A DNA stretch of 34,480 nt from Bacteroidota bacterium (GTDB lineage: Bacteria > Bacteroidota > Bacteroidia > Bacteroidales > GCA-2748055), in contig QMPQ01000008.1 of assembly GCA_003648635.1 (NCBI GenBank), forward strand, positions 1-34,480, given 5' to 3'. Under the pieces are notes generated by a model, which did no database searches, was not told the origin of the DNA, and worked only from the letters and a program-made list of their open reading frames with translations. Shown piece by piece: positions 6,036 through 26,439 of this stretch (position 1 is the first letter of the stretch; every line of letters begins with the position of its first letter). Both the position numbers and the translations under genes were made by a program.

Positions 6036-6054
6036 CATAGTTCTTAAAAATTTT

Positions 6055-6380
6055 GCAGTAGTTGATCCTGTCGCTGCAGGCTTCGGCCTGTGGAGGAAAG
6101 TCCGGGCAGCTAAGGGTACCGCACTGTTGAAAAACAGATGTCTGTGAAGGCATGGGTGCAAAGAAGAAAATAACCGCCTCCTTAAGGGGGTAAGGGTGAG
6201 AAGGTGGGGTAAGAGCCCACCGGTGTAGCGGGCAACCGTTGCAGCCGTTTGTCCTGCGGGCTGAAAGGCCATGTATACCGGTATTATAAAAGCTACCCGC
6301 TTCTGCCGGGGGGTAGGCCGCTCAGAAAAATGACAGGAATCCTTTAAACAGGATACAGAACCTGGCTTACCAACTACTGC
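6055..6380 (+). ncRNA. rnpB: RNase P RNA (bacterial type A-like)
   Basis: gcagtagtt...aactactgc terminal pairing, gaggaaagtccgggc 5' core, and acagaacctggcttac 3' core motif. The ORFs on this segment are incidental. Confidence 0.93.
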
Positions 6381-6386
6381 ATTTTT

Positions 6387-22499: not shown

Positions 22500-23225
22500 A
22501 TGTGTTTTACCATAGAAATACATCTTACCAGGAAGGCCATTGAGGATAGGTTCCGGGTCGATACCTCGGCATTGTATGATTTTGATTTTAACTATTTCTA
22601 CAGGGCATTCAGCAATCCCTTTATCCCAGTGATCGCCCAGGAAGATTCATCGAAGGTTCAGTTGATGCAGTGGGGCTTGATCCCAGCCTGGAGTCGCGAC
22701 CGTGAAGAGGCGGAACGAATCCGAAAAGGGACCTACAACGCCCGGTCAGAAACTTTGCATGAAAAGCCCTCCTTTAAAGAAGCATTGAGCAGGGGACGCT
22801 GTCTGATCATTGCGGGAGGTTTTTTTGAATGGCAGCTTGTAGACCAGGTGAAGATCCCATGGTATATCTCATTGAAAAATGGAGACCCATTTGTATTTGC
22901 AGGTCTGTGCGATAGCTGGAGGGATTCCCTTAGCGGTGAAATCAGTAGAACTTGTTCTCTGATTACTACCCAGGCAAACCCGCTGATGGAGCTTATCCAC
23001 AACACCAAGAAAAGAATGCCGGTTATTTTAAATAAGGACCTGGAAAACGATTGGATTTCCGGAGAACCCTCCCTCTTAAAGAGAAATCTTATATTAACTG
23101 CTCGCAATGAATCTGATTTAAAGGCACATACGGTTTCTCCGCGTCTCTCTTCTCCACATGCTGAGCCTTCAGATCCACGTATAATTGCACCATATGAACA
23201 ACTTTCTTCTGGAAGATTATTTTAA
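22500..23225 (+). CDS. SOS response-associated peptidase family (SRAP; YedK/HMCES-like)
   Basis: Cys2 after Met (MCFTIE), YNARSETLHEKPSF, GRCLIIAGGFFEWQ, LIHNTKKRMPVIL. Confidence 0.9.
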   Translation: MCFTIEIHLTRKAIEDRFRVDTSALYDFDFNYFYRAFSNPFIPVIAQEDSSKVQLMQWGLIPAWSRDREEAERIRKGTYNARSETLHEKPSFKEALSRGRCLIIAGGFFEWQLVDQVKIPWYISLKNGDPFVFAGLCDSWRDSLSGEISRTCSLITTQANPLMELIHNTKKRMPVILNKDLENDWISGEPSLLKRNLILTARNESDLKAHTVSPRLSSPHAEPSDPRIIAPYEQLSSGRLF

Positions 23226-23413
23226 ATGATCCCTGGATTTCAACAAATAGAATAATAGTTGTTCTTCTATAAAAGCTTACTAGATAAATAGATGAGTCAT
23301 AAGATTAACAAGCTATTAACTATTTGTTAATAAAGTCTGTTCATTCAATGTTAAATTCTTCAAGGTTTTTTTCTTGCAGCAATGCTATAAAGCATATACT
23401 TTTGGTATACCAA

Positions 23414-23833
23414 GTGAGCGATAAAAGGCCACTCAGTTCTTTAAATGATTAAGTTCATTAGCTATCAGGGCAACCTGGTAATGTGAACATGGGTCACGCG
23501 AACAGCTAATCAGGTATTGATGCTGTTCTCCCGATCTTCGGATCGGACTGTGAACTGGAGTACCTGGACTGCTGTCAAAGGCATGAAGGGAGATTCGAAA
23601 CGGAAACCGTAGAGTACCTGAAAACGCGGTGAAAGTTGTTAGCAGTTGAGCATTGGCATTGTCTATGGGCAACAGCGGTGCAAGTTGTTCGATTCGTCGG
23701 ACAGCGAAAGAGATTACAAGGCTTCGGCCTCGTATTCGAACCATAATAACCGTAGCTTGGCGCGAATTAGAGACTACGGTATCTAACAAGCGGAATGGGA
23801 ACCAGATGCAAATTTGGCTCCCATTCGTGTTTT
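23414..23833 (+). ncRNA. Candidate large structured RNA, possibly 5' domains of a group II intron lacking an encoded RT
   Basis: ORF-poor block with many hairpins: CCGATC-TTCG-GATCGG (23531-23546), AGGC-TTCG-GCCT (23719-23730), ACCGTAG/CTACGGT (23749-23755/23774-23780), AGG-GCAA-CCT (23467-23476), GAATGGGA/TCCCATTC (23793-23800/23819-23826). GTGAGCG at its 5' edge resembles the group II GUGYG start. No RT ORF and no recognisable domain V. Confidence 0.5.
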
Positions 23834-23925
23834 ATACCTCCAAAGCTTAGATAAAATCTTTTGACCAAATGCTTGGAATGAATTATCAATCACTGCAAAA
23901 ATCTCTACGAACGTGCGTATTCTTA

Positions 23926-23967
23926 TGCGAAGAGCACTATAATATACATTATTGACCGCCCTTCGCA
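23926..23967. repeat. Inverted repeat TGCGAAG / CTTCGCA
   Basis: Perfect 7-bp arms at 23926-23932 and 23961-23967, 28-nt loop. Confidence 0.5.
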
Positions 23968-24123
23968 ATAAGCGCTTAGCCATTGTATCATTCTAATTAT
24001 CAGCATATTCTGCTTACGATGAAGAGGAGGCCAAAATAGGGCCTTTGAACAATTCTGATCTAAACTCATTTAACTGTAACTTAGTATTAGTAATAGAAGA
24101 TCATTGTTCGAATTTTAGTTGTT

Positions 24124-25452
24124 TTGAAAAAGATTCTGATTTTTATATCTCTGTTTATTTTCCTCTTTTTTGGAGAGATCGCATTGACCTTCTCCGATAA
24201 GGGATATCCATCTCTTTTGAATGATGAAGAAGTACCTTTCTCTCTGCTGATTGACAATCAATACTCTGATTTTGAGGGAACAAACAATATAGACAAGCAA
24301 ATTGATGCTTTTCTCAAGCGCTGGAAGATTGAGGGTGCCAGTCTGGCCGTTACCAAGGATGAACGTCTGGTATATGCCAAAGGATTTGGTACAGCCAATA
24401 AGGAAACAGGAGAGGATGTGAAGCCTGGTCACCTTTTCCGAATTGCATCTGTCTCCAAACTGATCACTGCTGTAGCCATTATGAAATTATATGAGGAAGG
24501 AATGCTCGAACTGGACGACCCTGTTTTTGGAGAGCATGGTATTCTTAATGACTCAATATTCAGAAACTATGTGGATCCCAGGGTTGAGGAAATAAGTGTT
24601 CGCCACCTCTTAAACCATACTGCTGGTTGGTCAAGATACGCAGGTGATCCCATATTCAATCCGCTTTATATTGCCAGGAAAATGAATGTTCCGGCTCCTG
24701 CTGCTGTAGAAGATATCCTGCAATATACGCTTACGCGAAAATTGAACTTTGAACCCGGAACCCGTTACAGCTATTCCAACATGGGCTACGCCATACTTGG
24801 AAAGATCATTGAGCGGGAAAGCGGAATGCCCTACCAGGATTATGTGGTTATGAATCTGCTTAAGCCACTGGGTATTCATGATATGCATATCGGGAAAAGT
24901 TACTATCATGAAAAATACCCAAACGAGGTCAGATACCACAGTAGTGCAGGTGTAATGACCACCCGTGCCATGGATGGATCGGGTGAAATTGTACCTATAT
25001 ATTATGGTGGCAATGATATGGAACTGCTGGGTCCGGCCGGAGGCTGGGTGGCTTCAGCTCCGGAACTGATAAAATTTATGACGGCCATAGATGGCTTTGA
25101 TGACCAGCCCGACATTCTTACTCCAGAAACCATAGCCAGTATGTCGGATCCAAGTATTGCTGGAAAAGGTCTTTTCGGCTGGAGGGGAAGCGACAGTTAC
25201 GGCACCTGGTGGCGCACAGGTTATCTCTCCGGCTCTTCAGCCTTGATAGTCAGGCAAACGGATGGAATAAACTGGGTTGTCATGACAAATACCACTACCT
25301 ATAAACAATCCAGAATACACAGGTATGTTTCGGCTATGATGTTTGGGGCAATAAGTAAAGTTCAGCAATGGCCTGATATTGACCTTTTCACCATGGAAGA
25401 GAAACATCCCGGGCCAATTGCAGATATTCCTGCAACAAATCCGAAACTTTAG
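24124..25452 (+). CDS. Serine hydrolase, class C beta-lactamase/penicillin-binding-like (TTG start)
   Basis: RIASVSKLITAVAIMKL (SxxK), YSYSNMGYAILGKIIE (YxN), signal/TM N-terminus. Confidence 0.88.
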   Translation: MKKILIFISLFIFLFFGEIALTFSDKGYPSLLNDEEVPFSLLIDNQYSDFEGTNNIDKQIDAFLKRWKIEGASLAVTKDERLVYAKGFGTANKETGEDVKPGHLFRIASVSKLITAVAIMKLYEEGMLELDDPVFGEHGILNDSIFRNYVDPRVEEISVRHLLNHTAGWSRYAGDPIFNPLYIARKMNVPAPAAVEDILQYTLTRKLNFEPGTRYSYSNMGYAILGKIIERESGMPYQDYVVMNLLKPLGIHDMHIGKSYYHEKYPNEVRYHSSAGVMTTRAMDGSGEIVPIYYGGNDMELLGPAGGWVASAPELIKFMTAIDGFDDQPDILTPETIASMSDPSIAGKGLFGWRGSDSYGTWWRTGYLSGSSALIVRQTDGINWVVMTNTTTYKQSRIHRYVSAMMFGAISKVQQWPDIDLFTMEEKHPGPIADIPATNPKL

Positions 25453-25512: not shown

Positions 25513-26439
25513 ATGGAACTTTCATCCATCAAACACATAGATCCTTCGCAACTGGCTGATTTTAAGGCTGATTTGTTTATTACTGGTCTTGGCTATGAAA
25601 GTCGAAGCACCACCGTGGCACGGAGGTTTGAAAACAACTCCTGCAGAAAAATTGCCCTGGAGAACAACAACCTCATCAAAGAGTATTCATACCAGGAAAA
25701 TAGCGACTATTTGGAGAAGCATGGCTTTGAGATTATCAGGGTCCAATCTGAGCTTCCTGACGTGGATGAAATTTTCCAATCACTGAGTAGGGATACCATT
25801 AATATTGTCCTTGATTGCACCAATATGCCCCCCTTATGGTACTATGAGTTTTTCAAGTGGTTTGATGAGAAACAGGCTGCAGAGGGAAAGGTCCGGATGA
25901 GGATTGCCTATACCATGGCCAAGTATGTACGGCAACCTGGTTCACGCAAGGTTAAAGAGATCTTTGATTTTTTGAAGGAGGAGGTAAGACCTGCAAATGG
26001 CAAGAAGGTTGCTCTGATCCTGGGACTTGGGCAGGGAAAAAATGTCTCTGATTCGATATTCAAAATGATTAATCCTGATCTGCTTTATCTCTATTATGCT
26101 GATCCCCCTGCGGAAAAACGCTTTGTTGAGAAGGTCTTTGTAAATAACCATAACCTGATTAACGAAGCTCCCATCAGGAACCTTGTTGCCTATCCAATCC
26201 GTAACGGACAGGCGATCTATCAGAGTCTGATTAATATCATTCTACCTCTGCGCGATGAGTACTCCATTGTGCTTATTCCTCAGGGTCCTAAAATATTCTC
26301 TGTGGTATCTATGCTGGTTCATATGGGATACCCCGATATCAGGATTAGTTATCCGCGTTTTAAGAAGCCACCTTCAGTCGATCGTCTGCCCAAAGACGAA
26401 CCTGTTGTACTGGACATTCTATTCGAAGGCGAAGAGTAA
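25513..26439 (+). CDS. Uncharacterised conserved-looking protein (308 aa)
   Basis: Intact ORF with ADLFITGLGYESRSTTVARRF, INIVLDCTNMPPLWYYEFFKWF, VALILGLGQGKN; no family confidently recognised. Confidence 0.75.
   Translation: MELSSIKHIDPSQLADFKADLFITGLGYESRSTTVARRFENNSCRKIALENNNLIKEYSYQENSDYLEKHGFEIIRVQSELPDVDEIFQSLSRDTINIVLDCTNMPPLWYYEFFKWFDEKQAAEGKVRMRIAYTMAKYVRQPGSRKVKEIFDFLKEEVRPANGKKVALILGLGQGKNVSDSIFKMINPDLLYLYYADPPAEKRFVEKVFVNNHNLINEAPIRNLVAYPIRNGQAIYQSLINIILPLRDEYSIVLIPQGPKIFSVVSMLVHMGYPDIRISYPRFKKPPSVDRLPKDEPVVLDILFEGEE

Follow-up and report, generated by a model that had tools for sequence, protein, structure and literature searches.

The window, that is the whole stretch of DNA that was analysed, comprises 34,480 nucleotides of contig QMPQ01000008.1 (assembly GCA_003648635.1) from a Bacteroidota bacterium of the order Bacteroidales, a placement that promoter type and gene content also make very probable. 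A gene encoding an SRAP protein (22500-23225) and a serine hydrolase gene (PF00144, 24124-25452) flank a putative non-coding RNA, designated copy A, and both neighbours lie on the same strand as the RNA. The region 25513-26439 (plus strand) encodes a protein of 308 amino acids without a Pfam or NCBIfam match; most members of the family retain it beside the hydrolase, and its sequence diverges fast (28-89% identity). The window also contains, at 6054-6385 (plus strand), an ordinary housekeeping RNA, the class A RNase P RNA of bacteria, detected with a score of 196.7 bits. The RNA locus comprises the following features:

23316..23354, plus strand: operator, composed of the imperfect palindrome TTAAC-TAT-TTGTTAATAA and, after it, the two direct boxes TGTTCAT and TGTTAA
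23374..23379, plus strand: -33/-35 element TTGCAG, whose location before the copies is conserved (TTGAC/TTTGG/TTGCA)
23397..23404, plus strand: -7 element TACTTTTG of the Bacteroidota type TAnnTTTG, conserved and directly before the RNA
23408-23410, plus strand: transcription start, predicted from sequence
23410..23833, plus strand: ncRNA copy A, ~424 nt, based on homologues and covariation, with both ends predicted
23794..23833, plus strand: intrinsic terminator AATGGGA...TCCCATT-CGTGTTTT, also present in the inspected homologues

As the initial annotation had stated, the intergenic stretch of about 420 nt is devoid of a credible ORF: when open frames were compared among 13 homologues, the longest were erratic and none was conserved in the RNA region. 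The dense RNA structure likewise proposed for the stretch agrees with its MFE of -144.3 kcal/mol as compared to -120.4 +/- 6.1 kcal/mol for dinucleotide shuffles of the same stretch (z = -3.9). Concerning the boundaries, previously set to 23414-23833, the end at about 23833 was retained and the start was not, since conservation and the closing helix begin at CCAAG (23410) and not at GTGAGCG (23414).

A whole-genome search revealed the RNA in 13 of the 17 other genomes of the genus, full-length in 12 of them (80-96% identity) and partial, at a contig end, in one. In other genera of the family, weaker matches to the ends of the RNA were obtained by the same search. These 13 congeners, as well as 8 genomes from four further genera, share both the site and the gene order (SRAP - RNA - hydrolase), and synteny of copy A spans five genera; in one genome (G022), SRAP is missing from the RNA site. 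Within its own genome the RNA stretch is single-copy by blastn, similar DNA was not found on plasmids, and viral contigs gave no match to the RNA pattern. The RNA is syntenic and inherited vertically, and is not mobile. A 25-nt match at L026:8752 was attributed to chance, as no RNA surrounds it.

Matches to the 5' end at other sites in three genomes (G020, G026, G027) led to a second type of copy. In the genome of the window, this diverged copy B of ~535 nt was found by a pattern of the 3' core (C16:7581-7632, minus strand), flanked by genes for FloA and for a sodium:solute symporter, with a gene for a TonB receptor further out; the pattern read backwards, as a control, gave zero matches in 393 genomes. 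In a search of the order with a covariance model of the 3' core (84 positions), the RNA was detected in 84 of the 393 genomes; these belong to 33 families, 30 of them at E<1e-4. In the window's own family the RNA is present in 26 of 28 genomes, including all 10 of good quality, usually in two copies each. By these matches, most genomes of the family are seen to carry two diverged copies at unlinked sites. The phylum-wide covariance search gave matches in the same class only, among them a convincing one in f128, a further family of the class, with both the 5' motif and the core present. Weak covariance matches in family f124 (L107-L110) were rejected, since they resemble terminators and lack both the 5' motif and the core. 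Members range from compact ones of ~325 nt to the longest of ~560 nt, and the genes beside the copies are unrelated from copy to copy (FloA, SSF, TonB receptor, SusD, carboxyl transferase). Tandem copies were observed in other families (L118:3001 and 4517; L119, minus strand, 3375 and 4175; G180:C1:208875 and 209359), and in L118 and L119 each tandem copy has an operator and a promoter of its own.

Across copies, the operator consists of a palindrome TTATTAACAATTGTTAATAA followed by two direct boxes TGTKNAT(AA), and the boxes TGTKNATAA resemble DnaA boxes. It is present in 57 of 57 aligned copies and ends 78-80 bp before the RNA start in 52 of the 57. These copies were chosen by promoter and 5' motif, so that promoter conservation is in part a consequence of the selection, in which the operator played no role. 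When up to 3 mismatches were allowed, the genome of 4.13 Mb contained two operator sites, before copies A and B only, and zero sites for the reversed operator. The predicted elements identify the RNA as a gene with promoter, terminator and private operator, and the two copies are likely co-regulated.

RNAalifold folded 13 sequences of the genus into 110 pairs. In a count of 108 pairs over these sequences, 98.1% of cells were paired, as compared to 29-41% when partners were slid by 1-3 columns, and compensatory (double-sided) changes were found in 25 pairs versus 10.3 +/- 1.9 in shuffles. The elements of the fold in copy A are:

23410..23414, plus strand: 5' strand of P1, CCAAG, pairing with CTTGG at 23756-23760
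23427..23430, plus strand: 5' strand of P2, GGCC (RNA nt 18-21), pairing with 23739-23742
23461..23482, plus strand: GCAA-capped hairpin (helix 5 of the covariation count), 3 pairs with compensatory changes
23531..23546, plus strand: UUCG-capped hairpin CCGATC/GATCGG (helix 7), 3 pairs with compensatory changes
23720..23729, plus strand: second UUCG-capped hairpin GGC/GCC (helix 16), GC to AU in 6 sequences
23739..23742, plus strand: 3' strand of P2, preceding AUAAUAA; P2 is down to 2 pairs in the window's member
23750..23755, plus strand: pseudoknot strand CCGTAG, pairing with the loop at 23774-23779
23756..23760, plus strand: 3' strand of P1, CTTGG, directly after the conserved GUAG
23761..23792, plus strand: P3 hairpin, its loop carrying CTACGG (helices 3 and 4 of the cross-copy comparison)

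P1, formed by RNA nt 1-5 with CUUGG, holds across families, with 223 of 225 pairs in 45 members and at most 53% in shifted controls. Its strands occur in nine combinations, including CCAAG/CUUGG, UCAAG/CUUGA, CCGAG/CUCGG, UCAGG/CCUGA, CCAGG/CCUGG and UCAAA/UUUGA. P2 has 136 of 168 pairs versus at most 133 in 1000 shuffles, and its pair types covary. In the P3 stem UUAGA/UCUAA, all five inner pairs have changes on both sides; the CCGTAG pseudoknot is paired in 89% of cells and mostly invariant. Two unpaired motifs, UGAGMGAUAAAA and AUAAUAA, are conserved. The two UUCG hairpins, the GCAA hairpin and the final long hairpin, all recognized in the single sequence by the initial annotation, are retained throughout or almost throughout the 13 genus sequences, with compensatory changes in each of the three capped hairpins. 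For the 7-bp complement ACCGTAG/CTACGGT the pairing stood and the form did not: the simple hairpin was dropped after comparison with copy B in favour of a pseudoknot, in which CCGUAG pairs with the loop of P3. The long-range pairs TTAGCT/AGCTAA and GTTCA/TGAAC, also proposed, are absent from the consensus fold. Since the first nucleotides pair with the 3' part and the hairpin loop pseudoknots back, P1, P2 and the loop pseudoknot join both ends of the RNA in a compact core in the predicted fold, and the arms between the two ends are variable; the 3' core is well supported, and the middle part can be aligned within genera only. A GUAA-capped hairpin in the middle, GAUCGUAAGACCU, is conserved in the copies of type B and in the A copies of two genera, g2 and g5 (loci compared: L024, L025, L046, L040 and others). 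In the window's own genus copy A lacks it, and this arm may there have been lost or replaced.

Searches against Rfam 15 gave no match for the RNA, in the window or in diverse homologues, at gathering and at permissive thresholds. No earlier description was met in the open literature searched. OLE, ROOL and GOLLD are large ornate ncRNAs and provide precedents for the broader kind (PMC12286853). Like the RNA described here, they measure several hundred nt, stand alone, adopt an elaborate pseudoknotted fold and lack an ORF, with a function that is unknown or of scaffold type (PMC12286853). They are, however, from another clade, whereas the present RNA has its ends tied by P1/P2 and the loop pseudoknot and usually comes as two chromosomal copies, likely co-regulated, with a common multi-box operator; neither the region in the window nor diverse homologues matched their Rfam models at gathering threshold or at E<=0.5. 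The 6S-Flavo RNA (RF01685), a stand-alone ncRNA reported from Bacteroidetes (PMC2864571), differs in its model of 108 positions and its unrelated architecture; it had no match in the window's own genome in a search in which the control genomes were silent too, and the Rfam scan of the window was negative. tmRNA is similar in size, in its pseudoknots and in its end-to-end pairing, but the present RNA has neither a tRNA-like domain nor a tag ORF, and neither ARAGORN nor Rfam detected a tmRNA in the window. Because no homology to the known large ornate RNAs was found, the RNA would, as judged by Rfam 15 and the open literature searched, be new as a family, and the broader kind of large ornate RNAs has precedents. 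The suggestion of a possibly undescribed large ncRNA is thus borne out by the homologues, the covariation, the predicted promoter and terminator and the lack of an Rfam match. The region is very probably the gene of an undescribed family of large stand-alone structured ncRNAs with its own transcription unit, a confidence that refers to identity (RNA family and transcription unit) and not to function.

A group II intron devoid of an ORF, whether decayed, truncated or mobilised in trans, was among the origins initially considered and would account for a large RNA with UUCG/GNRA hairpins and some D1-like phrases, and the genome does hold one D5-D6 match (G000:C57:18867-18924, minus strand; L022) and one RT (RVT_1, G000:C198:3944-4633, minus strand; L021), its sole matches, on different contigs. 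Group II membership is nevertheless refuted, and an intron extremely improbable: cmscan at E<=5 on 23200-24150 matched neither D1-D4 nor D5-D6, diverse homologues (20 loci) gave no match, and the RNA occupies the same intergenic site in congeners and other genera, has its own promoter and terminator, and lacks near-identical extra copies in the genome. The accompanying remarks that domain V and an RT are missing were correct, RF00029 being unmatched in the region and RVT_1 being confined to contig C198. Copy A shares its strand with both neighbours and keeps its place throughout the family, as would a cis-acting element of the hydrolase or SRAP gene (leader, riboswitch or 3' UTR); since it ends in a terminator ~290 bp before the next gene start, and the genes next to copy B and next to the copies found in other families are unrelated, such a role is highly improbable.

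Since the RNA is conserved in its ends, its fold and its regulation, and its copies have different genes beside them, the folded RNA would act in trans, probably as an RNP scaffold. As a statement of function, a scaffold RNP is put forward tentatively. A regulatory RNA acting in trans, which would pair with mRNAs or mimic a nucleic-acid ligand (6S-like or sponge) and use its fold merely for stability, is consistent with a stand-alone gene, two co-regulated copies and an intrinsic terminator. The length, the pseudoknotted core and the conserved unpaired motifs exceed the needs of base-pairing sRNAs, however, and the single long bulged hairpin of 6S-like RNAs is missing, so that we consider this role somewhat unlikely. 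The multi-pseudoknot core closed by the RNA's own ends and the purine-rich joining strands of compact members might also be expected of a self-cleaving or otherwise catalytic RNA, a reading made improbable by the lack of a match to any ribozyme model, the single terminator at a fixed 3' end and the lack of an evident substrate.

Genes controlled by DnaA have DnaA boxes (TTATNCACA) in their promoter region. In the copies of family f128 (L102, L103, L104), perfect TGTGGATAA boxes stand upstream in place of the TGTTNATAA palindrome, the boxes of the remaining copies being TGTTNATAA variants and not canonical TGTGGATAA; comparison of the lineages suggests that the operator word has drifted between them. 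The TGTGGATAA word occurs just 2 and 5 times in 400 kb of two f128 genomes, and the window's own dnaA region contains no cluster of such boxes. Transcription would be set by a factor binding TGTKNATAA boxes, either dedicated or DnaA-like, with DnaA as a candidate because the f128 relatives have perfect TGTGGATAA boxes at the same place. This factor would control transcription of both copies together. That the boxes themselves are the functional element, a DnaA titration site or oriC with the RNA as a by-product, is very unlikely in spite of the DnaA-like boxes before the copies and the perfect ones in f128: the boxes sit immediately before the promoter and keep a distance of 78-80 bp to the point where the RNA begins, and strong selection acts on the fold of the RNA itself. 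A GC-skew switch is absent at the locus in the three genomes examined, which speaks against the oriC reading. A further reading, which we judge unlikely, would be a clade-wide class of large RNA under DnaA or a DnaA-like box reader, a folded RNP RNA that contributes to the coordination of replication or growth and whose two co-regulated copies represent subunits or alternative forms.

Large structured RNAs conserved across many bacterial families are rare. The RNA described here is found with strong scores in 30 families of one order and in one further family of the class. Since its operator marks just two RNA genes in the genome of the window, the function of the RNA is open to direct tests by deletion, pull-down and operator binding.
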